DNA of 64,000 nucleotides from a virus: the IMG/VR virus record IMGVR_UViG_3300033153_013649, positions 62,001 to 126,000 of that record; one strand, 5' to 3'. Of the stretch, positions 20,056 to 63,563 are shown piece after piece (the stretch's first letter is position 1; each line of letters begins with the position of its first letter). The position numbers and the translations under genes were made by a program. A model generated the notes under the pieces. The model worked only from the letters and a program-made list of their open reading frames with translations, did no database searches and was not told where the DNA came from.

Positions 20056-20087
20056 AGATGGGGTAAAAATTAAATTTGAATATCTTT

Positions 20088-20143
20088 GAGCGAATGGCGC
20101 AAATGGTATACGCAGTGGATTACGCAGACAGTTCTAGACCTCT
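20088..20143 (+). other. tRNA-like 5' half (remnant)
   Basis: GAGCGAA is followed by TGGCGCAAATGGTATACGC, a typical tRNA D-arm. A CAGA/TCTG stem around TTCTAGA follows, but no matching T-arm or 3' acceptor (TTCGCTC) is seen nearby. Either a decayed tRNA gene or one with an interruption. Confidence 0.3.
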
Positions 20144-20237
20144 GGCGTGTTGATTATTAAACGAAAAACAAGTAATAATTAATAGATAATATGAGAAGCT
20201 TGATAAATTATTAAAAACAAAAGAAAGGAAATAACTA

Positions 20238-20498
20238 ATGTTAGAAAAAGAAAGTGTAGAAGAGTTAAATCTTTTTAAGCTTGTTGAAAGGGGTGATGCG
20301 GTATGCAGCAAAGCCAAAGAGCTTACAAACCGCGTAGATCATGTGGTTTCTAGACTAATAGGTAGTAGTCAAAAAACAAATAAAAAAGAGGAGGCAAAAC
20401 CAACGTGTCCTAATAATTTGTTTGATTTATTAGATGACCATTTTAATAGAATCATGGAAAGTTTAGTTAAAGCTATAAATGGGCTTGATAAATTATAA
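20238..20498 (+). CDS. Small helical protein, copy 1 of a tandem pair
   Basis: 86 residues, AAAGGAAAT site. Shares layout with the gene at 20607: an L..LVE start, a KV.TLIG/RLIG segment, a charged linker and a C-terminal DNLYD/NNLFD helix ending in LDKL/LDRL. Function unknown. Confidence 0.6.
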   Translation: MLEKESVEELNLFKLVERGDAVCSKAKELTNRVDHVVSRLIGSSQKTNKKEEAKPTCPNNLFDLLDDHFNRIMESLVKAINGLDKL

Positions 20499-20606: not shown

Positions 20607-20870
20607 ATGTTATCATCAGATGAAAAAACAAAGGATACTATGAAGATTATAGAACTTGTTGAGCAGGCTAGGATTGTATTGAATTGTTCGTGTTCTCTTA
20701 GTGAAATCGCAAGAACTAAAGTATCTACATTGATAGGTCGTGGACCAGAAGCTCCAGAGGAGAATAAAAAAGAAGAGAATCCTGATAATCTATATGATAA
20801 TGTCATGCATTTACTTAAAAGAACCCTTGAGAGTTTACACGAGATCGAATATGAGCTTGATAGATTGTAA
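20607..20870 (+). CDS. Small helical protein, copy 2 of a tandem pair
   Basis: 87 residues; same AAGAAAGGAA leader and same organisation as the gene at 20238, so a diverged duplicate. It ends just before an interrupted tRNA-like element. Function unknown. Confidence 0.6.
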   Translation: MLSSDEKTKDTMKIIELVEQARIVLNCSCSLSEIARTKVSTLIGRGPEAPEENKKEENPDNLYDNVMHLLKRTLESLHEIEYELDRL

Positions 20871-20878
20871 ACTTTATT

Positions 20879-21016
20879 GAACGAGTGGCGGAATAGGTAG
20901 ACGTTACCATCTGGACTTGGTTAGAGCTTTGGCTTGGGGTGACCGTGGTAAGAGGGGTTCGACTCCCCTTTTAAACAGATAGTTTAACCATGCAGGCTCG
21001 AGTCCTGCCTCGTTCT
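20879..21016 (+). tRNA. Interrupted tRNA-Leu-like gene with insertion in the anticodon arm
   Basis: Acceptor strands GAACGAG (20879-20885) and CTCGTTC (21009-21015) pair perfectly. A Leu-type D-arm (TGGCGGAATAGGTAGACG) follows, and a perfect T-arm (GCAGG-CTCGAGT-CCTGC) abuts the 3' acceptor. Between them ATCTG and CAGAT can pair as an anticodon stem but enclose about 62 bases, including a second T-arm-like hairpin (AGGGG-TTCGACT-CCCCT). A tRNA with an intron-like or nested insertion fits best; the anticodon cannot be read. Confidence 0.5.
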
Positions 21017-22386: not shown

Positions 22387-23235
22387 ATGAAAAAGTTTAG
22401 TAAAATTCTTTTAGAAAAAGAAACTACCGATCGAAAAATTCGCAAAGAAGCCGAAACTATTTACAACAAAATTATTCGGATTATAAACTCCAAAAAGGAA
22501 AAAATTCAACAATATCAAGAAGGATTTAGTTTAGAATTAGGAAAAATTGATCCTAAATATAAAAAAACGGGGTTAATATTTCAAGTTGGTAGAATTTCAG
22601 ATAAGCCAGGGGAGCTTGCTGTTTTTGCTAGTCCTGGTGCACTAGCTGGACCAGTAAATAATATTCCTTCTATTAATATGTTTATTCTTCCGGACAAATG
22701 GGATTATCTTATAGCATTAAAAGAAATAAAATCTGATCGATCTAAAGTAGCTTTTATTCATGAGTATATTCATTATTATGATTGGTCAAATCATCCAGAT
22801 GCTTTTGAAAAGGAATCTAGAATATCTGCAATGTCGTACATGAAAAGCTCTGAAAAACTCAATTATTATAATTCAAATCCAGAATTTAATGCTTATTATC
22901 AAACAGGTATCAAATGTATAGAATTACAACTAAAAGAACTTCTTAAATCAAAATATAAAGAGTATGGTATTGAACTTGCTTATAAAGTGTTTCCTATAGA
23001 TATTAATGATTTCCTTCATAATAATATTGATAAATATTTTCATGTTCCATGGCTTAAAGCTTTGAATTTTAAGAATCAAAAGAAGTTTTTAAAGAGATTA
23101 GCAGATTATTATATTGATCTTCACGAAAGACTTTCTAGAACTTATAATGAAGGTCAGAAAAAACTTCCTAAGATTAAAAAATTTGCTAAAAACGCAGATC
23201 CAAAAAAATTCAAAAATAATCAAAAAAAGTGTTGA
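22387..23235 (+). CDS. HExxH metalloprotease-like protein with tag-like N-terminus
   Basis: 282 residues. AFIHEYIHYYD near residue 123 contains HExxH, the zinc-peptidase motif; the rest is unfamiliar and the C-terminus is very basic. The first residues, MKKFSKILLE, resemble the N-terminal tag of the small proteins at 33-36 kb, so packaging in the head and injection is possible. No ribosome site is obvious before the ATG. Confidence 0.5.
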   Translation: MKKFSKILLEKETTDRKIRKEAETIYNKIIRIINSKKEKIQQYQEGFSLELGKIDPKYKKTGLIFQVGRISDKPGELAVFASPGALAGPVNNIPSINMFILPDKWDYLIALKEIKSDRSKVAFIHEYIHYYDWSNHPDAFEKESRISAMSYMKSSEKLNYYNSNPEFNAYYQTGIKCIELQLKELLKSKYKEYGIELAYKVFPIDINDFLHNNIDKYFHVPWLKALNFKNQKKFLKRLADYYIDLHERLSRTYNEGQKKLPKIKKFAKNADPKKFKNNQKKC

Positions 23236-23260
23236 CAAGTACAGGATTTTTTAGTATATT
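23232..23260 (+). promoter_or_regulatory. Early promoter (TTGACA-17-TATATT)
   Basis: TTGACA 23232-23237 (overlapping the preceding stop) and TATATT 23255-23260 in the shared context. Drives 23311-23975 and perhaps the structured RNA beyond. Confidence 0.88.
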
Positions 23261-23310: not shown

Positions 23311-23769
23311 ATGGCTGGTAAAATAACCAAACTTACTCGTAATAATGTTGACAAGATTTATGATGAACTTCAGGCCGAATTGGATAAAGTTGGCAATAGG
23401 ATGGGTGTTAGTTTAAAACTTGGAAATTGTACTATTGATCTCGATGAAGGTTCAATAGTTTTTAAGAAATTCCGGCTTCAGGTTGATGATCAGATCGATG
23501 AATCAGTTCCTGAAAATTGGCGCGATAATCCAAAAATGGTCAGTCATTGGAACGAGTATAGAGATACAGCTTCTCGTAAAGGTCTCCCGGCGACAGCTCA
23601 GGGAAAAACTTTCGAGCATAGAGGTGACGTAGTTATGGTAGCTGGTTATAATAGAAAAGCTTATAAAAGACCGGTTATGCTTCTGATCGTTGGTGATAGA
23701 AATGGCGCATATTACTCATTACCGCTGGAATACGCAAAGAAAATTTTTAAAGAAAAAGGTCTTTGTTAA
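23311..23769 (+). CDS. Hypothetical protein, about 152 residues
   Basis: ATG 23311 behind GAGGAG, preferred over an earlier ATT/ATG-like extension. N-terminal helix (TRNNVDKIYDELQAELDKV) then beta-rich body; base composition is more G+C than neighbours. Not recognised. Confidence 0.6.
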   Translation: MAGKITKLTRNNVDKIYDELQAELDKVGNRMGVSLKLGNCTIDLDEGSIVFKKFRLQVDDQIDESVPENWRDNPKMVSHWNEYRDTASRKGLPATAQGKTFEHRGDVVMVAGYNRKAYKRPVMLLIVGDRNGAYYSLPLEYAKKIFKEKGLC

Positions 23770-23975
23770 TGACTCGTTATAATAAAAAGTTTGAAAAGAA
23801 TTCATCGGTCGTCGCAGTTAACGAAATTGATTGCGGCGGCTACACTGTTCCGAAAGGATCAGTAGGTCGTTTTATCTGGGAAAGAGATTTCGATCCCGGA
23901 AAGGGTGGACAAGACGTAGCTATATTTTTTCCTTGTATTGAAAAAAAGGTTATAGTTGATAAATTGACAAATTGA
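23769..23975 (+). CDS. Small SH3/KOW-like protein, 68 residues
   Basis: ATG overlaps the previous stop (TAATG). SSVVAVNEIDCGGYTVPKGSVGRF looks like a small beta-barrel of KOW/SH3 type, by pattern only. Followed by the structured RNA. Confidence 0.5.
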   Translation: MTRYNKKFEKNSSVVAVNEIDCGGYTVPKGSVGRFIWERDFDPGKGGQDVAIFFPCIEKKVIVDKLTN

Positions 23976-23988
23976 TAATCATATTTAG

Positions 23989-24231
23989 GAGAATATTCTC
24001 CGCGCGACTTCTCAGTATGGAATCCTGAAGTTGACAATTAAGAGATCACGCCTGGGAGTAGTGTTAGTAGGAATTGGGAAGTTCCGAAATCATCGCGAGA
24101 TGAGCGTACTGATTTCCACCATAGGCCTGGTGTTTGACCAGCGTCCTATGCGGTTAGAATCATCTTTATCTGGAGAGAGCATGGTACCTACTCGAATCCA
24201 GGGTCTGCGCGGAGAATATTCTCATTTTTTT
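23989..24231 (+). ncRNA. Structured RNA of unknown class closed by a 17-bp helix
   Basis: GAGAATATTCTCCGCGC (23989-24005) pairs perfectly with GCGCGGAGAATATTCTC (24207-24223), and a run of seven T follows, so the 3' side is a terminator. The roughly 200 bases inside are much richer in G+C than the surroundings and fold into clear hairpins: GAAATCA/TGATTTC enclosing CATC-GCGA-GATG with a GNRA loop, CACCA/TGGTG, GGAA/TTCC and GGAGTAG/CTACTC. No known RNA family is recognised. No promoter of its own is evident; it probably comes from the 23232 transcript. Confidence 0.65.
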
Positions 24232-24545: not shown

Positions 24546-25940
24546 ATGAAGAAATCAACTACAGAAAAAGAAACTAAACTTCTTGATCTTATTAGAAGAG
24601 AAATTAAAGGAACTAAATTTGAAGATAAAGTATTCCTCGTAGGGGGAGCTGTAAGAGACGAAATTATGGGAAGTAAAAATTTTAAAGATCTTGATTTTAT
24701 AGTAAATCTTGAAAACGGAGGAATTCTTTTTGCTGAATGGATTACTAAAAGATTCAATTCTTTTAAAGATAGATCAAATCCAATAATTTTTCCGAAATTC
24801 GGAACAGCTAAATTTAATCTTTATATCTGCGGATATGAAGATATTGAAATTGAAGCTGTTATGCCTCGTCAAGAGAATTATGCAAATTCAAGAAAACCAG
24901 AAGTTCAATTTGCTAGTCTTCGCGTGGACGCGCTTAGACGGGATTTTAGTATGAATACTCTTATGAAAAACATTTCTACTAGAAAAATTATTGATCCTCT
25001 TGGAAAAGGATTTAATGATATACATGATCAAATAATCGATACTTCTTCCGATCCAGATATTATTTTTAAAGATGATCCTCTTAGAATGCTTAGAGCTATT
25101 AGATTTTATGCTAAACTCGGTTTTAGAATTTCTGATAGACTTCTTAATGGAATCAAAAGAAATTCTCATTTTCTTGAAAGTATTTCTCAAGAAAGAATTC
25201 AAGAGGAATTTAATCAAATTCTTCTTACTAATAGAACTTCTGAAGCATTAAGAATCATGCTTTCAACTGGACTTATGAATTATATAATTCCTGAATTACT
25301 CGAATTAGATGGTCTAGAGCAAACTTATCACCATCAATGGGATGCTTTAGAACATACTCTTAGAACTGTTGAAAATACTTCTCCCAAATTGATGAGAAGA
25401 ATGGGAGCTCTTCTTCATGATATTGCTAAGGCAAGAGTTAGATCTATTACTGAAGACGGTAAATTTCATTTTTTTGATCATCAAACAGAAGGAGAAAAAC
25501 TTGCTGAAGAAATTCTTATTAGATTGAAATATTCTAGTAATTTTATTAAAGGAATAAAAACGATTGTTAAGAATCACATGAGATTTAAAATGAGTAAGAC
25601 TCATTCTGATAAATTACTTAGAAAATTTAGAACGGATGTTGGAGAATATTTTGAAGCAGTTCTTGATGTTATTCATGCAGATAATATTTCTCATGGAAAC
25701 GGGTTTAATTTGCCAAATCAAATTCCTGAAATCAGGAAAAGATTTATTAATCTTGATGATCAAAAATCTGAACCTAATCTTCCGATCAATGGTAATGATA
25801 TAATGGAGATTCTTAGAATTTCTCCTGGTCCTGAAGTTGGGAAAGTTCTTAATCTTGTAAAAGAAGCTTGGTTTGAAAATCCTGATATAACGAAAAAAGA
25901 GGCAATTGAAATAATTAAAAGAGTCGTAAAGAAGACATAA
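24546..25940 (+). CDS. cca: CCA-adding enzyme / tRNA nucleotidyltransferase with HD domain
   Basis: 464 residues. FLVGGAVRDEIMG with DLDFIV (about 30-55) is the class II nucleotidyltransferase head; DALRRDFSMNTL and DPLRMLRAIRF are the neck motifs; an HD domain follows (LLHDIAKA and FFDHQTEG, about 285-320). It adds or repairs the CCA end of tRNAs. None of the clear tRNA genes in this window encodes CCA, so the phage needs this activity. Start lacks a good ribosome site. Confidence 0.9.
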   Translation: MKKSTTEKETKLLDLIRREIKGTKFEDKVFLVGGAVRDEIMGSKNFKDLDFIVNLENGGILFAEWITKRFNSFKDRSNPIIFPKFGTAKFNLYICGYEDIEIEAVMPRQENYANSRKPEVQFASLRVDALRRDFSMNTLMKNISTRKIIDPLGKGFNDIHDQIIDTSSDPDIIFKDDPLRMLRAIRFYAKLGFRISDRLLNGIKRNSHFLESISQERIQEEFNQILLTNRTSEALRIMLSTGLMNYIIPELLELDGLEQTYHHQWDALEHTLRTVENTSPKLMRRMGALLHDIAKARVRSITEDGKFHFFDHQTEGEKLAEEILIRLKYSSNFIKGIKTIVKNHMRFKMSKTHSDKLLRKFRTDVGEYFEAVLDVIHADNISHGNGFNLPNQIPEIRKRFINLDDQKSEPNLPINGNDIMEILRISPGPEVGKVLNLVKEAWFENPDITKKEAIEIIKRVVKKT

Positions 25941-26813: not shown

Positions 26814-28016
26814 ATGCTTGAAAGTAAATTTTTAAAAGATTTAAAAAAATCTCAAGGGGAAAGAACAATAATAGGATTCAATATGGCGCCAGAAGTAGCT
26901 GACGATAATTGGTTTTCTACTGGTTCTAAGATGCTTGATATGCAAATGAACGGGGGGAAATTAAATTTAGGAGGAGTTCCCGGAGGAAAGATTTCAGTTT
27001 TTGCTGGTCCAAAAACTTGTGGAAAGACTTATTTTGCTTCTCAAGTAATAAAGGATTTTTTGGAAAAAGAACCCCTCGGAATAGCTTTGTATTATGATAC
27101 AGAGGAAGCAATGACTCCAGCGAGACTTTTTAATTCTGGAATTTCGAAAGAAAACATCGAAAGATGTATTATTGTTCCGATTGTTACTCAAGAAGAATTA
27201 TGGTTAAAAGTTGCAGAAGCTTATAGAAATATTGAAACAGAAAACGTAAGGATCATGATTGTTGTAGATTCAGTTGGTGGGTTATCTTCTCAAGCTGCTT
27301 TTAATGATATTGAAATAGGGAATATTCCAAAAGCTTCTATGGGTAGAGAACAAAAAATGAACAAAGAAATCGCAAAATATATTATGCATAAAGCAAATTC
27401 TGGAAATCATGGTCCTTGTATTCTTATTTCTCATGTTTATAAAGATCTTAATGCTCCAAATCCAAAATATGCTACGAATGTTATTTCAGGGGGAGAAGGG
27501 ATTGGATATTTTAATTCGAACACTGTAATTTTTACTAGATCAAAATATAAAGAAGAAAAAGATTCATCAATACATGAAGTAAATGGAATTTTAGTAAGAT
27601 CAATTATTACTAAATCTAGACTTGCTCGAGAAGAAACGATTACTCAATCTCTTATTCATTTTAACAGAGGTGTTATTCCATATTTCGGATTCGTTTCAAT
27701 GTTAGAACAAGCCGGATTTTTATGGAAAGCCGGAAATAAATATCAGCTCGATGGTCCGAATCCAGATTATGTAAAAAATTCTAAGAAACCAAATGAAAGA
27801 TACCCGGGTCTTGGACCAACATATTGGGCAAAAGAATTAAACGCGAATGCTTCTCTTATCCAAGAGCCTCTCAAAAAACTTGAACCTTGGACAATTAAAC
27901 AATTTGCAATTGGAAAATTAAGTATGTCTACAAATGACGAATCTCTCGAAGTTCCTGAAAGTACTTTGGATTTTAGTAGAGTTGATGAAGATGAAATTTC
28001 AAGTACAGGGAAATAA
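26814..28016 (+). CDS. uvsX: UvsX/RecA-like recombinase
   Basis: 400 residues, like T4 UvsX (393). STGSKMLDMQMNGG leads to Walker A GPKTCGKT (65-72), YYDTEEA, and Walker B IMIVVDSVGG. It forms filaments on single-stranded DNA and drives strand exchange for recombination-dependent replication. The acidic C-terminus (DEDEISS) fits the family. The helicase gene overlaps its stop codon. Confidence 0.9.
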   Translation: MLESKFLKDLKKSQGERTIIGFNMAPEVADDNWFSTGSKMLDMQMNGGKLNLGGVPGGKISVFAGPKTCGKTYFASQVIKDFLEKEPLGIALYYDTEEAMTPARLFNSGISKENIERCIIVPIVTQEELWLKVAEAYRNIETENVRIMIVVDSVGGLSSQAAFNDIEIGNIPKASMGREQKMNKEIAKYIMHKANSGNHGPCILISHVYKDLNAPNPKYATNVISGGEGIGYFNSNTVIFTRSKYKEEKDSSIHEVNGILVRSIITKSRLAREETITQSLIHFNRGVIPYFGFVSMLEQAGFLWKAGNKYQLDGPNPDYVKNSKKPNERYPGLGPTYWAKELNANASLIQEPLKKLEPWTIKQFAIGKLSMSTNDESLEVPESTLDFSRVDEDEISSTGK

Positions 28017-29398
28017 TGATAGAATTAAACGGTATTATAATAAGTAAGTTGCTTTCTGATAAGGAATATGCTAAAGATGTAATTCCTTATCTTAAAGAGG
28101 AATATTTTGATGAACCAAATGATAAAAGAATAGTTAAACTTATTCTCGAACATTATCATCAATTTAAAACTTCTCCTTCTTCTGATGATATTGAACTTGA
28201 TCTTAGAAAATTACCAGAAAATTTAGTTGAAGATGCAATAAGTAGACTATTAGAAATTAAAGAAATTCATAATACTGAATTAAATAAAGAAAAACTTCTT
28301 AAAAATACAGAAAGATGGATTCAAGAAACTTCTGTTCAGAATGCTATTATAAAATGTGCAAGAGAAATTCAAGAAGGAAATGTTAAATCTTTTGATCATT
28401 TTCCAAAAGTTCTAAAAGAAGCTTTATCAGTAGCTTTTGATAAATCGATCGGTCTAGATTTCAAAGATCCGAATTGTATAAGGGAAAGATATAAAAAATA
28501 TGTAATAAAACCAGAAAAAATAAAATTAGGAATTGATAGATTCAATTTTATAACTGATGGTGGATATGAATATTCGACTCTTAATCTTTATATAGCTCCA
28601 ACAAATGTTGGGAAAACCTGGAAATTAATTGATGATTCAGCTTCTTTAATTAAACTTGGATATAATGTATTATACGTAACCCTTGAGATGTCAGAAGATA
28701 ATATAATGCAAAGAATAGAAGCTAATCTATTCGAATTACCAACTTCTGAATTTAAGAATTTAACACTTAAGGAATATGCTAACTATTTAAGATCAATTAA
28801 AGCAAAAGCAGGGAAAAAGTTGGGAAGATTATTTGTAAAAGAATATCCTACTGGATATGCTACAGTAGCAAATTTAAGTCTTCTTTTAGATGAACTTGAG
28901 CTGAAGAAAAATTTTATTCCTCATGTTTTAATAGTTGATTATATGGGAATTATGAAACCCTTAGAACCTCGATGGGCGAATTCGTATGAAAAACAAAAAA
29001 TTATATCAGAAGAACTTAGAGGATTAATGGTAGAAAGAAAAATTTGTTGTATTTCTGCTATTCAAACAAATAGAGAGGGATATAATGTTTCTGATTTTAA
29101 TCTTACAGCTACTTCTGAATGCCTTGACTTTTCGACATTAGTAAAAAAGAAAGTTAATAATAAATATGAAAATATTAAAATAATTGATTTAAAAGAAGGA
29201 GATATAATAAAGGGAAATAATAAAGATGTTAAGGTTAAAAGAATTTTCCCTATAAAAATTAAGAAAGCTTATAGGATTAAATTAAAATCAGGAAAAGAAA
29301 TTATTTGTTCAGCAGATCATAAATTTCCAACATCTGAAGGTATTGGAACAATTAATAATGGGAAAATAAAAATAGGAACAAAACTTAATTCCCAATAA
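28016..29398 (+). CDS. 41: Replicative DNA helicase (gp41), N-terminal extein plus split-intein N half
   Basis: 460 residues. 1-368 are a DnaB/gp41 helicase with Walker A APTNVGKT (194-201), VLYVTLEMSEDN, HVLIVDYMG (Walker B) and ISAIQTNREG. At residue 369 (nt 29120) the helicase stops at LTATSE and an intein begins with Cys (CLDFST); its block B-like SADHKFP is at 434-440. The 92-residue piece ends in a stop codon. Its sequence and insertion point match the known gp41-1/gp41-8 split inteins. The rest is at 29459. Confidence 0.9.
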   Translation: MIELNGIIISKLLSDKEYAKDVIPYLKEEYFDEPNDKRIVKLILEHYHQFKTSPSSDDIELDLRKLPENLVEDAISRLLEIKEIHNTELNKEKLLKNTERWIQETSVQNAIIKCAREIQEGNVKSFDHFPKVLKEALSVAFDKSIGLDFKDPNCIRERYKKYVIKPEKIKLGIDRFNFITDGGYEYSTLNLYIAPTNVGKTWKLIDDSASLIKLGYNVLYVTLEMSEDNIMQRIEANLFELPTSEFKNLTLKEYANYLRSIKAKAGKKLGRLFVKEYPTGYATVANLSLLLDELELKKNFIPHVLIVDYMGIMKPLEPRWANSYEKQKIISEELRGLMVERKICCISAIQTNREGYNVSDFNLTATSECLDFSTLVKKKVNNKYENIKIIDLKEGDIIKGNNKDVKVKRIFPIKIKKAYRIKLKSGKEIICSADHKFPTSEGIGTINNGKIKIGTKLNSQ

Positions 29399-29458
29399 TT
29401 GCTCGTTTAAAAATCTTAATATTGATTATTATTAATAAAGGTAAGGGGTTTATTTTAA

Positions 29459-29854
29459 ATGCAATGGAATGATGAAATAGTTTCGATTGAAGAATTAGAT
29501 GAAAGAGAATTAATTGACATTGAAGTATCAGGTGATCATTTATTTTATGCAAATGGAATCTTAACAAAAAATAGTATCGGAACTCCCATGATCGCTGATT
29601 TTATTGCAGCAATGATTAGAAGTGAAGAACTTGACGAAGTAAATGAAATATTTATAAAAGTTTTAAAAAATCGTTATTCCCCTTTTGTAAATAGAAAATT
29701 TATTCTTGGAACAAATCTAGTACTTCAAAAATTTTTCGATATAGATCAAGATCCAAGTTCAGATTTATCAGAAGAAGCTATAAAGAAATTTAAAAATAAT
29801 ATAAAAGAAAAGGTTTCAAAAAAGAAATTTGAAATTGAAAAACCAGGAAGATAA
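29459..29854 (+). CDS. 41: Split-intein C half plus C-terminal helicase extein
   Basis: 131 residues. The first 38 are an intein C half: EELDERELIDIEVSGDHLF then YANGILTKN, ending in Asn before Ser+1 of SIGTPMIADF. The EELDERELIDIEVSG block is nearly the same as in gp41-1 IntC (from memory). Residues 39-131 complete the helicase; splicing would give a 461-residue gp41. It is only 60 bases after the N half, has its own site (AAGGGG), and no endonuclege gene lies between. Confidence 0.9.
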   Translation: MQWNDEIVSIEELDERELIDIEVSGDHLFYANGILTKNSIGTPMIADFIAAMIRSEELDEVNEIFIKVLKNRYSPFVNRKFILGTNLVLQKFFDIDQDPSSDLSEEAIKKFKNNIKEKVSKKKFEIEKPGR

Positions 29855-46842: not shown

Positions 46843-47540
46843 TACTTGAAAATTTAAAAGACGGAGCTTGGAAAGGACATCGAGCATTTATTATTGGAGG
46901 GGGTCCTTCTTTAAAAGGATTCGATTGGAAATTACTTCGAAGGGAAAAGACAATTGGCGTTAATAAAGCAATATTGAAAATCTTTCCTGATATTATGATA
47001 GGAATGGATTATCGGTTTTGGAATAAGCTTTTATCCGGTGATTTAGGTGATGTTATTCTTAGAAGAGTTAAAAGAATGAAAGGCTTAAAAATATATTTTC
47101 GAACCGGTAAATCTTTAGCTAATAAATTTTCATGGGCAAATTTAATCGAAATTGTTCCTAATCAAAACAATAAAAATGCTTTTACTACTTCTTTTAGTAA
47201 AGGATTAGGACATGGAAAAAATTCAGGATTTACTGCTTTAAATGTTGCAGTTAATCTTCGAGCAAATCCAATTTATTTACTTGGTTTTGATATGAAAGGA
47301 CATCCATCTACTAAAAAACAAGTTTGGTGGCACGAAGGATATCCATTTTCAGTAAATGATGAAAGTATATACAGACAATATATAAGAAATTTTGAAGTTC
47401 ATGCTTTACCTGTAATAAATAAATTGGATTTGAAAGTTATAAATCTAAATCCAGCAAGTGAATTAAAATGTTTTGAATTTGCTAAACCGGAGGATATATT
47501 TGAAAATAATGAGATTCTTGAAGATGAATCCCTCTTATAA
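46839..47540 (+). CDS. DUF115/MptE-like protein, copy 1
   Basis: 233 residues, TTG start overlapping the previous TGA. GHRAFIIGGGPSLKGFDW is the GGGPSL signature of the DUF115/6-hydroxymethylpterin-pyrophosphokinase-like fold used by several glycan-related proteins; IYLLGFDMKG near 150. A paralogue is at 48472 with a 74-base identical segment. Exact activity unknown. Confidence 0.65.
   Translation: MILENLKDGAWKGHRAFIIGGGPSLKGFDWKLLRREKTIGVNKAILKIFPDIMIGMDYRFWNKLLSGDLGDVILRRVKRMKGLKIYFRTGKSLANKFSWANLIEIVPNQNNKNAFTTSFSKGLGHGKNSGFTALNVAVNLRANPIYLLGFDMKGHPSTKKQVWWHEGYPFSVNDESIYRQYIRNFEVHALPVINKLDLKVINLNPASELKCFEFAKPEDIFENNEILEDESLL
46868..46941 (+). repeat. 74-bp perfect repeat, copy 1
   Basis: Identical to 48498-48571 over 74 bases, within the GGGPSL coding region. 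The rest of the two genes has diverged, so this is recent gene conversion or strong constraint. Confidence 0.95.
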
Positions 47541-48411
47541 GAAATTTATCTATTGTATAGTTAGTTGGCTGATACTTATATTAATAATGGCTACTGTTAA
47601 ATTTAAAATCGATGAGATTTCCCTTAGATATAAAATAGAAACGCTTCAGGCTGAATATGAAGTAAAAAGCCAAGGATATGATGTTTTGAAAGCGCAGTAT
47701 ACTGCTGCGGCGAATGACTATCTCGCCGATCGGAAAATAGGGAGAGTCGTTCGCTCTGTTAATCCATGGCTAGACGATGAGCACGTTCAACTTTGGATCA
47801 AGATGCTTAAAGAAAGTGGAGACGGTATTCTTGCTGGTTTAAACAATTTTTCATTGAAGAAATTAGGCACCGGAGATTCGCTGTATTCTCTAAGACCAGG
47901 AATAGCTTTGCTCATTTCTGTTGGCGCATTCGAAAGTGATTTTAGGTTGTTTTCTGATAGTGGTAAGGGAGCATACGGTCCTATGCAGTTGAAAAAAATA
48001 ACAGCTGTTCAGGTTGGCATCAAGGACCGTCAAGATCCAGAGGAAAATATAAGAGGTGGAGCATTACATCTTGTTTCATTATTACAAAAATACTACCAGT
48101 ATCCAGATCAGCTCGAATTGGCGCTTGCCACTTACAATGCGGGCGCCTCGCGTGTAAAAGGAAGATGGATTCCGGAATGGGGCGCCGAATGGCATGCAAT
48201 ATATTCCGGACTTTCTGCGGACATGACATTCAAGGAGACGCGCACTTATGTTACGGCGGTGATGGAGCTAACCCGGCTCTTTGCCTCCGGTAGATGGAAC
48301 TCCCTGGATCAGAACTTCTGGAGCAACTACCGGCAGTTTATTTTCCGCGCCGATTATGTCACTGTTTTCGACGAAGAAAAGATGCAGATTACGGAACAGG
48401 ATGATTCATAA
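47524..48411 (+). CDS. Membrane-anchored lytic transglycosylase (SLT)
   Basis: About 295 residues from ATG 47524. One N-terminal signal anchor (YCIVSWLILILIMATV), a coiled stretch, then an SLT domain: AFESDF with the catalytic Glu, SGKGAYGPMQL, and ALATYNAGASRV. It cleaves peptidoglycan glycan strands with anhydro-ring formation. From about 47680 the G+C content is clearly above its neighbours, suggesting separate origin; it lies between two paralogous DUF115 genes. Confidence 0.85.
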   Translation: MNPSYKKFIYCIVSWLILILIMATVKFKIDEISLRYKIETLQAEYEVKSQGYDVLKAQYTAAANDYLADRKIGRVVRSVNPWLDDEHVQLWIKMLKESGDGILAGLNNFSLKKLGTGDSLYSLRPGIALLISVGAFESDFRLFSDSGKGAYGPMQLKKITAVQVGIKDRQDPEENIRGGALHLVSLLQKYYQYPDQLELALATYNAGASRVKGRWIPEWGAEWHAIYSGLSADMTFKETRTYVTAVMELTRLFASGRWNSLDQNFWSNYRQFIFRADYVTVFDEEKMQITEQDDS

Positions 48412-60422: not shown

Positions 60423-60767
60423 ATGTTAATGCTATATATTCATTCGTTTGTGAAATCGTTGCTGCCATATATAGCATTACTGCATCGTAAAAACTGGTTG
60501 TTTGACAGAAGAGAGTATCCGCAATTATGGCACACATGGAGTTGGATTGCACCCCGCGGAACAAGAAGAAGGGAATTGCTTTATAGAATTTGCGGAATTT
60601 TGACCGGGCACGAAATTAGTAAAACGGAATGGGGATATGGAGGGGGAAATTTTGTTGATCGACATTGTCGATGGTGTGATAAATTGATGCGAGTTCATAA
60701 ACTTGAAGACAAACCACCCGATTCCTTACAGGACTTGGTTGGACCATTGGGATTTTATGATAAATAA
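60423..60767 (+). CDS. Conserved phage protein with zinc-like motif, 114 residues
   Basis: EWGYGGGNFVDRHCRWCDK near residue 75-93 is a recurrent motif of small phage proteins; C..C plus H may bind metal. N-terminal part is aromatic and possibly membrane-associated. Function unknown. Confidence 0.6.
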   Translation: MLMLYIHSFVKSLLPYIALLHRKNWLFDRREYPQLWHTWSWIAPRGTRRRELLYRICGILTGHEISKTEWGYGGGNFVDRHCRWCDKLMRVHKLEDKPPDSLQDLVGPLGFYDK

Positions 60768-60789
60768 TATGAGGATAAAAGGTATATTG

Positions 60790-62952
60790 ATGCATAAATA
60801 TCTGATTATAATATTAATATTACTGCTGCCGTGCGGTGTTATCGGGCAGACGGCGGTGCATGATACGAGCACCGCATTCGATGCTGGATACATATACAGT
60901 AGGGATTCGCTTTACAGTGTAGCGCGAGGATCGACGACCGGTAATAGTTCTGGCACCACCCTTCTCTGGTTCGGGCAGAACGACAATCTCGGCGGAGATA
61001 ATTTTATTTCGCGTGCATTTTTCACTTTTGTTTTTAGTGACATTCCGGGAAGCGCAATCATTGATTCCGCAAAAATTGTATTAGATGGCAATAACGCTAA
61101 TTATGGTACTCATTTTTGGTATAATATTTATGTAGCGACATATTCCTCAATTGCTACGTCGGAGTTTGATGCGTTCATTGGCTGGCAAAGCGGAGTGCAA
61201 ACATATACTGGAGACTCGCTGGCATTTTCACTTTATACGGGGGATTATTCAGATGGCGACAATGTGATGTATATGAGGCAATCAGGATTAGATAGCATTA
61301 CGGCTCACATCGGAGACAGCCTAAAATTAGTGATACTGAGCCGCGAAGATGTGGTGGCATCGGAGCCGACCAATAACGAGCATGTCCGATTTGAGATTAA
61401 CCCAGAAATAATTGTTTCATATCATACGGCAGCTGGTGATTCGCCTCGCACTCTTACAAACTTTGATGTTTATGATGCCGGGCAGGATACAGCACTTTAT
61501 ACAGTTCATCCCGATACCGGCGATTTTTCCATGTGGGATAGCATTGTTGTGTACGATGCGACAGATACGGCTACAGTTTACGGCGCATTCACAAGCGGCT
61601 CTCTGGCGGACACGGCGGGCACATTAAGCAATCTGACAATCGGCGTCCTCGATACCCTGATTGCGGTGATGTACGCCCCGGTCGATACAATAGCTTATTC
61701 GCTGATTGATACCGTTACTACACTTTCAATATCTTCACCAACTGCTCATTATGTTTTTGCGGGAGCTACTGGTAACAATGATGGCTCTGACTGGACAAAC
61801 GCGTGGACTGAATTGCCTGCGACTTTAATACGAGGAGACATATATTATGTTGGCGCCGGCACGTATAGTTCATATACTTTTGACGATGCTGTTTCCGGGA
61901 CAGACAGTATTAAGATTTTATTTGCCGATTCTGCGAGTACTCCAGCTATTGCGTCAATAAATGGCTGGACTACGGCGATTGATGATAGCAATGCGGTATG
62001 GACTGCACCAACAACTTTTACGTCTAATTATTGGGTTATGGACGGGCAGGTTGGCGGCGGCCCTGGTAATTGGACGTCGGGACACGGTTTTAGAACTAAG
62101 GGTACGAGTGGGGGACAAAGATTGATATTTTTCGACAACGGTGCAAGTAATATTACAATAAGTCATTTTAATTTAGAGCATCGTGGATTAGATACTGAAA
62201 CTGGCGATGATGGCATTTATCAAGCAGATAGTACTGTACAAAATATTACTATTGACCATTGTTATTTACATGATTTCGGGAGAGTGCCTTTATTAACGAG
62301 ATTCACGGATAATTGGTTGTTTGAATATAATTATGTTGCAAGAAATTCATCATCTCCGGCACAACACGCTGAAGCGTGGTCTGACCAGGGTAGCGATGAT
62401 ATGATTGTGAGATATAACATGTGGGCTGATATAGAGGGAACTGCCTTTTTAGCATTTCTTGGACAAGATGTCACCGCAGAGAGATGGGAGATTTATGGAA
62501 ATGTATTTTTCTATACAACTGATAATTCTACTAATCGTGAAGGAATAGCATCAGGAACAATTATCACACGAGAATCTTGTTTTTCCAATAATATAAAAGT
62601 GTATAACAATACATTTATCAATATACCCGCACAAAGCGCTGGTATTTATTTATTCGGAACTGGAAATGAAATATATAATAATATTTGGTATAACTCTAAT
62701 ATGATTTTAACACTTCAAGGACAAGGAACATTTGATTATAATTGGTATTATGGAAATACAGATTATAGAGATAGTAGTAATACAGATGCTTCTTTGGCTG
62801 GAGACGAAACTAATGGCGTTGTCGGAACTGGCGATCCATTTGTAGACTGGCAGAATGGGAACTTCAGACTTAAAAAGGCGCCGATGGTTTTTGGGACAGG
62901 GGAGCTTATGAATATACCGCCGGAGGTTTTAATGTGTACAATGTTGCTGTAA
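60790..62952 (+). CDS. Secreted beta-helix protein, first part of a frameshifted gene
   Basis: 720 residues in this frame from ATG 60790 (AAAAGG site). Signal peptide KYLIIILILLLPCGVIGQ. Beta-sandwich domains to about 310, then a right-handed beta-helix (NITIDHCYLHDF, RYNMWADIEG, IKVYNNTFINIP) typical of polysaccharide-acting tailspikes. The frame ends early, but the -1 frame reads on from 62874 with GADGFWDRGAYEY, the normal end of such domains, into Fn3-like repeats. G+C and codon use are higher than in the rest of the window. Confidence 0.75.
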   Translation: MHKYLIIILILLLPCGVIGQTAVHDTSTAFDAGYIYSRDSLYSVARGSTTGNSSGTTLLWFGQNDNLGGDNFISRAFFTFVFSDIPGSAIIDSAKIVLDGNNANYGTHFWYNIYVATYSSIATSEFDAFIGWQSGVQTYTGDSLAFSLYTGDYSDGDNVMYMRQSGLDSITAHIGDSLKLVILSREDVVASEPTNNEHVRFEINPEIIVSYHTAAGDSPRTLTNFDVYDAGQDTALYTVHPDTGDFSMWDSIVVYDATDTATVYGAFTSGSLADTAGTLSNLTIGVLDTLIAVMYAPVDTIAYSLIDTVTTLSISSPTAHYVFAGATGNNDGSDWTNAWTELPATLIRGDIYYVGAGTYSSYTFDDAVSGTDSIKILFADSASTPAIASINGWTTAIDDSNAVWTAPTTFTSNYWVMDGQVGGGPGNWTSGHGFRTKGTSGGQRLIFFDNGASNITISHFNLEHRGLDTETGDDGIYQADSTVQNITIDHCYLHDFGRVPLLTRFTDNWLFEYNYVARNSSSPAQHAEAWSDQGSDDMIVRYNMWADIEGTAFLAFLGQDVTAERWEIYGNVFFYTTDNSTNREGIASGTIITRESCFSNNIKVYNNTFINIPAQSAGIYLFGTGNEIYNNIWYNSNMILTLQGQGTFDYNWYYGNTDYRDSSNTDASLAGDETNGVVGTGDPFVDWQNGNFRLKKAPMVFGTGELMNIPPEVLMCTMLL

Positions 62953-63563
62953 GTGACACAACGTACCGGTCGGCAATTATTTCTTTCGATACGGCAGCAA
63001 CGACGGGGCTGGATTCGTTTGTTGTGATTTCGGCGTCGGACAGCAGCGAGCTTGAGAATTTCTGGCATTCGACCAGCGGGATGCTGGACTCGGCAAAAAC
63101 GCTGACGAAAGATTCTCTTTACAACTATCGGATTGTGGCGTACTATGACGGCGTTGACACTTTTTATACTGGTCCGCTCAGCTTTACAACACTGGACGAC
63201 CGGTACATTAATAATCTAAGATTGACAAATATCACAGATACTACGGTGACGGCTGAATGGGACACGTCTTACGGCGCGGTTAAATCAGCGTTTGACAGTA
63301 TGAGAGCAATCAACGATGCGGATTCAACTTTGCTTGCATCTTTTGGCACCGATACGACCGGCGTTATAGATAATCTTACTGCAGGTACGACATATTATAT
63401 CAGAATCGTGGGATATGCCAGTGATACCTTATATTATACTGAAAAGAGTACCTTTAAAACTAAATCATCAATTATTACTAAATGGGGATTTAATGCTGCT
63501 CCATGGAAAAAAGTCAAACAACTTATAATTTCATGGGGTAAATCGATATGGAGAAAATATTAA
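62934..63563 (+). CDS. Fn3-like C-terminal part of the secreted protein (second frame)
   Basis: The frame is open from 62874 and holds two fibronectin III-like repeats (about 1-90 and 95-175: YNYRIVAYYDGVDTFYTG, TTYYIRIVGYASDTLYYT). A GTG at 62934 has a GGAGG seven bases upstream, so independent start is possible, but continuity of the GAYEY ending across 62877 argues for one protein. The end is basic (KKVKQLIISWGKSIWRK). Confidence 0.6.
   Translation: MYNVAVSDTTYRSAIISFDTAATTGLDSFVVISASDSSELENFWHSTSGMLDSAKTLTKDSLYNYRIVAYYDGVDTFYTGPLSFTTLDDRYINNLRLTNITDTTVTAEWDTSYGAVKSAFDSMRAINDADSTLLASFGTDTTGVIDNLTAGTTYYIRIVGYASDTLYYTEKSTFKTKSSIITKWGFNAAPWKKVKQLIISWGKSIWRKY

Follow-up and report, generated by a model that had tools for sequence, protein, structure and literature searches.

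A perfect 17-bp helix around a GC-rich noncoding segment between two transcription units of a T4-superfamily phage: a possible 3'-end structure

Introduction

In an intrinsic terminator of transcription the loop is short, and the hairpin forms in the exit channel of the polymerase. Promoter-terminator cassettes of T4-type phages, known as PeSLs, were reportedly the subject of work by Arbiol et al. 2010 and Comeau et al. 2014. Such cassettes have been described in T4-type phages (PMC4503421). A different kind of phage element is represented by GOLLD and ROOL, large phage RNAs with known structures; these classes are defined by covariation and are often found near tRNA islands, and members of GOLLD are often longer than 800 nt (PMC12286853).

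Here we analyse a 243-nt element on the + strand (23989-24231) of a window of 64,000 nucleotides, which comprises positions 62001-126000 of a 159,837-base IMG/VR record (~160 kb). Families of the gp23-type capsid, the portal and the tail sheath place this phage in the T4 superfamily. It is isolated, its capsid protein being ~30% identical to those of named phages. An earlier note on this DNA had proposed that the element is an unknown structured RNA closed by a perfect helix. Placed between two promoter-led units, it shares traits with both kinds of system described above.

Results

Layout of the locus

The element and its neighbours are arranged as follows (window coordinates).

23232..23260, + strand: promoter of the upstream unit, phage-type sigma-70, TTGACA-N17-TATATT; 11/12 matches, one of ~25 copies of the motif
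23311..23769, + strand: ORF1, 152 aa from ATG (open from TTG 23269), from the ORF list; G+C above most genes
23769..23975, + strand: ORF2, 68 aa, from the ORF list; stop codon 13 nt before the element
23989..24008, + strand: closing helix, 5' strand, GAGAATATTCTCCGCGC (17 pairs) and GAC (3 pairs), from pair probabilities
24009..24202, + strand: enclosed GC-rich domain; possible hairpins at 24070-24085, 24120-24150 and 24170-24201, folding z -0.18, no better than shuffled
24203..24223, + strand: closing helix, 3' strand, GTC, bulged T24206 and GCGCGGAGAATATTCTC
24224..24231, + strand: A and seven T, a terminator-like U-run directly 3' of the helix
24243..24271, + strand: next promoter, TTGACA-N17-TATATT, of the phage motif; begins 19 nt past the helix
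24300..24476, + strand: first ORF of the next unit, 58 aa, from the ORF list
24546-25940, + strand: gene for a CCA-adding enzyme, after the 58-aa ORF

The strict form of the phage promoter is TTGACAAA...TTTAGTATATTATA, and there are about 25 copies of TTGACAA...TTTAGTATATTATA, nearly all of them on the + strand. Of the two upstream genes, ORF1 had no match in Pfam or PHROG, gave weak matches only in tblastn (best E 0.03) and had no relatives in the species genomes, and AlphaFold models made without an alignment were unusable for both ORF1 (pLDDT 40) and ORF2 (pLDDT 49). What ORF1, ORF2 and the element have in common is a G+C content of 37-46%, against an ORF mean of 29% in the phage, and this shared elevation suggests that the block at 23.2-24.2 kb may have been acquired as a whole. 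The element itself reaches 46%. The earlier description of a segment much richer in G+C than the genome therefore holds, although this value is equalled or exceeded by several genes and by the tRNA cluster. Atypical codon use and a G+C of 40-44% also mark genes at 47473-48411 and 60423-63563 of the window and at L013:19095-19865; these are possibly recent acquisitions. Elsewhere in the window, a replicative helicase-like ORF (28016-29854) enters an intein-like stretch (CLDFSTLVKKKVN...) and stops, the rest being found in a second ORF, so that it may hold an intein split over two frames.

The promoter that follows the element has a near-copy elsewhere in the genome, 24243-24287 being identical to L009:19178-19222 at 43/45 nt (95.6%). 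This copy belongs to a twin cassette (L009:19101-19222; genome 19101-19222) that consists of an 8-bp GC-rich hairpin, AAGCCGTC...GACGGCTT, with a folding z of -3.2, a T-run and the near-copy promoter, and in which an ordinary terminator thus holds the position that the element holds here. The interval between the helix and the 24243 promoter is made up of A-T7 and GCAAAAAAGTA, and the spacers of the two cassettes are alike (ATTTTTGTGCAAAAAA in the twin, ATTTTTTTGCAAAAAA at the element). The promoter part is therefore repeated and the spacer similar, while the stem-loop sequences are unrelated. Most other promoters of the phage have no preceding terminator, which indicates that insulation of this kind is not a general habit of the phage. 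A sign of cassette duplication is also seen at L013:3131 and L013:17170, where promoter regions 14 kb apart are identical over ~60 nt. Two related homing-endonuclease-like genes (phrog_3339) are located just after the capsid gene (L009:3804-5294) and just before the twin cassette (L009:17477-19114).

The closing helix

The element is bounded by a perfect 17-bp inverted repeat, GAGAATATTCTCCGCGC (23989-24005) and GCGCGGAGAATATTCTC (24207-24223), with 201 nt enclosed, and the helix can be lengthened to 20 pairs by GAC 24006-24008 and GTC 24203-24205 if T24206 (U in the RNA) is bulged. Pair probabilities are 0.99-1.0 for the 17 pairs and 0.78-0.80 for the additional three; the outer end of the stem is AU-rich. 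To establish the chance level of such repeats, the genome was shuffled in 1-kb blocks, which gave for the whole genome an expectation of 0.2 perfect repeats of at least 17 bp within 600 nt, and of 0.4 perfect repeats of at least 12 bp with at least 7 G+C. Repeats of at least 13 bp with at least 8 G+C did not occur in any of 40 shuffled genomes. The real genome contains two 17-mers, one of them AT-rich (3 G+C) and the other that of the element (9 G+C). The helix that the earlier note had drawn around some 200 bases is thus real, far beyond what shuffled genomes lead one to expect and unusual for this phage genome. The T-run that it had seen after the helix is equally present, as A24224 followed by T24225-24231.

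Folding energies agree with this. The minimum free energy (MFE) of the whole element is -88.2 kcal/mol (z -4.9 on the + strand), compared with -56.5 for the interior alone, and the z of -5.3 on the - strand is similar, as expected, because the helix drives both values. Among 2,641 + strand windows of 243 nt the element has the lowest MFE, the tRNA cluster being less stable, and in the same scan its energy lies 4.6 standard deviations below that expected for its own G+C.

Each arm contains one copy of a 12-bp palindrome, GAGAATATTCTC, which is found nowhere else in the 160 kb, in agreement with the earlier observation of a palindrome in the closing strands. The chance of such a palindrome inside a 17-mer is ~0.1-0.5%. 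It is this palindrome alone that would point to dimer, circular or self-cleaving forms of an RNA.

The enclosed interior

In contrast to the helix, the interior folds much as its shuffled versions do. The MFE of the 201-nt interior, -56.5, is close to the average of -55.0 for the shuffles (z -0.35), the z of local folding is -0.58, and the ensemble is ill-defined, with a diversity slightly above that of the shuffles. Individual hairpins can nevertheless be picked out: those at 24070-24085 and 24120-24150 are supported by pair probabilities of 0.84-0.95, and the former, which has a GGGA tetraloop and a stem of 6 bp, lies at 0.88-0.95. The hairpin with a GCGA tetraloop to which the earlier note had drawn attention, CATC-GCGA-GATG (24091-24102), is possible on paper, but none of its pairs reaches a probability of 0.6, it competes with pairing between 24086-24091 and 24111-24116, and the GGGA loop is the better supported of the two. 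Of 300 shuffles, 4 contained two GNRA hairpins as well, but this tally was post hoc, taken after the hairpins had been seen. Since the interior does no better than shuffles, the several hairpins noted earlier are what any such sequence yields, and the proposal of an unknown structured RNA goes beyond the evidence: an RNA-level element of the + strand with a long helix is well supported, a discrete structured RNA is not.

One of the reading frames stays open throughout the element, for 86 codons, with no start nearby upstream. Its codon score is -0.44 per codon, compared with -0.30 for the lowest-scoring gene of at least 200 aa and a gene mean of +0.32. We rejected a protein-coding element on the grounds that this score falls below that of every gene of at least 200 aa and that a start is absent nearby upstream; the element is noncoding in character.

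Family and homologue searches

A search against Rfam gave the element no match at the gathering score, the families left unmatched including tRNA, tmRNA, GOLLD, ROOL and group I intron, and at E<=10 a single chance match (E 3). A tRNA or tmRNA was rejected, as ARAGORN returned none at its default settings and, when its thresholds were lowered, nothing but poor candidates that overlapped one another. The earlier statement that no known RNA class could be recognised thus holds for both programs.

The window does contain a tRNA-like gene (20879-21016) that plain ARAGORN and Rfam missed. It has a 7/7 acceptor stem, GAACGAG/CTCGTTC, and a T-arm, GCAGG-CTCGAGT-CCTGC, and its anticodon loop is interrupted by 61 nt that hold another perfect T-arm, AGGGG-TTCGACT-CCCCT. 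Upstream of it, a stretch resembling the 5' half of a tRNA (20085-20150, GAGCGAATGGCGCAAATGGTATACGCAG) precedes a small ORF (20238-20498), and a further small ORF (20607-20870) precedes the interrupted tRNA-like gene.

BLASTN of the element against phages and plasmids found zero homologues. The exact arm had two chance matches in IMG/VR, each to a single arm and in coding-like DNA, and two palindromes at the spacing of the element were found neither in IMG/VR nor in the species genomes. A 16-nt string from the interior gave two chance matches beyond which the similarity did not extend, and large records of distant relatives gave short matches only, the best one inside an ORF. Close relatives of the phage were sought in IMG/VR through the CCA enzyme, the RecA-like protein, the terminase and ORF1, and none were found, in collections that by their own notice may omit near-identical records; by capsid alignment, relatives were reached only at 26-43% identity, mostly on short contigs.

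Discussion

A 3'-end structure between two units

The element can be read as a structure that lies between two transcription units, forming the 3' end or the terminator of the first, and whose GC-rich loop is oversized; we give this reading about an even chance of being right. The element lies exactly between the stop codon of ORF2 and the next promoter, the promoters to its left and right both conform to the phage motif, and the T-run is confined to the 3' side when the element is read along the + strand, which is the sense of the neighbouring genes. The promoter-delimited unit, the T-run and a twin with a plain terminator together lead us to put a 3'-end structure first, rather than an RNA gene. 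RNA polymerase would start at the 23232 promoter and proceed through ORF1 and ORF2 into the element, where the 5' arm would already have been made while the GC-rich middle emerged and folded loosely. On emerging, the 3' arm could pair with the 5' arm into a helix of 17-20 bp (~-32 kcal/mol) right before A-U7. This helix might terminate transcription or, if termination comes about otherwise, cap the 3' end against exonucleases; either way, the unit would be insulated from the 24243 promoter, which precedes the small ORF and the gene of the CCA-adding enzyme. Both transcription of the element and its part in termination or protection are what we infer from the sequence, and the 200-nt middle would probably be not the active part but a passenger or a secondary domain that came in with the GC-rich cassette. 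Against a 3'-end structure stand the loop, since 201 nt far exceeds the usual length in an intrinsic terminator, and the rarity of terminators before the other promoters of the phage. A scan with the consensus of ordinary terminators did not call the element. Moreover, a simple terminator needs neither a GC-rich loop of 200 nt nor a palindrome in its arms.

Alternative explanations

A free-standing or processed trans-acting noncoding RNA of ~240 nt, ended by the helix and the U-run and with a functional GC-rich interior that binds, for example, a host protein or RNA, is a possibility we hold only tentatively and consider clearly the less probable. It would be in keeping with a GC-rich noncoding segment in an AT-rich genome, as with the tRNAs of this phage, with the lowest folding energy of the + strand scan, with the noncoding codon score and with the pair of GNRA hairpins, if the post hoc nature of that count is borne in mind. 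However, the interior on which its function would depend is poorly defined as an ensemble and folds no better than shuffles, and the family and homologue searches were empty. A weak promoter-like sequence, TTGATA-N18-CATATT, does end at 23985, 4 nt before the helix, but it matches at only 9/12 positions, and sites of this class are about equally frequent in shuffles. The bolder form of the idea, in which the element is the single example of a new class of ~240-nt phage RNA that is released from the 3' end of the two-gene unit, is closed by a self-complementary helix, might also pair as a dimer through GAGAAUAUUCUC and acts in trans during infection, seems to us improbable.

The arm palindrome keeps two rivals alive, the RNA dimer and a pair of DNA sites. 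As a DNA-level element, the identical 12-bp palindromes would be sites of a dimeric DNA-binding protein or a recombinase, and the segment would be looped or inverted. That the 160 kb hold just two copies of the palindrome, one in each arm, that it would be so rarely expected in a 17-nt arm, and that its second copy lies upstream of the 24243 promoter all speak in favour of such sites. The identity of the arms, however, runs inward as complement (5 more pairs, 3 after the bulge), which is stem-like, and the interior carries no copy of the phage promoter. Inversion driven by a recombinase becomes less likely since neither serine (PF00239) nor tyrosine (PF00589) recombinases were found in the phage record, and we regard a DNA-level element overall as quite unlikely. 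Size, terminal inverted repeats and a G+C unlike the rest of the phage would likewise suit a MITE, a non-autonomous transposon with 17-bp terminal inverted repeats. Such an origin is very improbable indeed, because no target duplication directly adjoins the repeats and a second copy is lacking: the element occurs once in the 160 kb, a two-ended match was absent from phages, plasmids, viral contigs and species genomes, and the sole flanking direct repeat, ATTGACAAAT, lies 16-18 nt off and is the promoter motif.

Comparison with known systems

If the element is a 3'-end structure, it would represent a terminator-promoter cassette whose stem has grown around a large GC-rich segment, and thereby a possible route from phage terminators to RNA genes; a trans-acting RNA, if true, would constitute a new phage RNA class. 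The single known copy limits such claims at present.

Like invertons, the element has perfect inverted repeats on either side of a few hundred bases, but here the record contains no PF00239 or PF00589 and the interior no promoter copy. GOLLD and ROOL resemble it in being helix-closed, in the multibranched drawing and in the setting, a noncoding RNA candidate of a tRNA-bearing phage, whereas the element has a length of 243 nt, is located 13 kb from the tRNA cluster and has no Rfam match. Closer is the intrinsic (Rho-independent) terminator, with which it shares a perfect, GC-containing stem and a U-run that ends a gene group; the differences are a loop of 201 nt instead of a few and a stem of 17-20 bp with an AU-rich outer end. 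As in a PeSL, a stem-loop is followed by a promoter between genes (helix end 24223, promoter 24243) in a T4-superfamily phage, and the promoter part is duplicated (at L009:19178), although the two copies have stem-loops of unrelated sequence and the stem here encloses 201 nt. We do not claim membership of either group, because the loop length fails the definition of a terminator and the stem-loop is not shared by the two cassettes; by analogy, the element nevertheless appears most similar to an intrinsic terminator within a PeSL-type promoter-terminator cassette.
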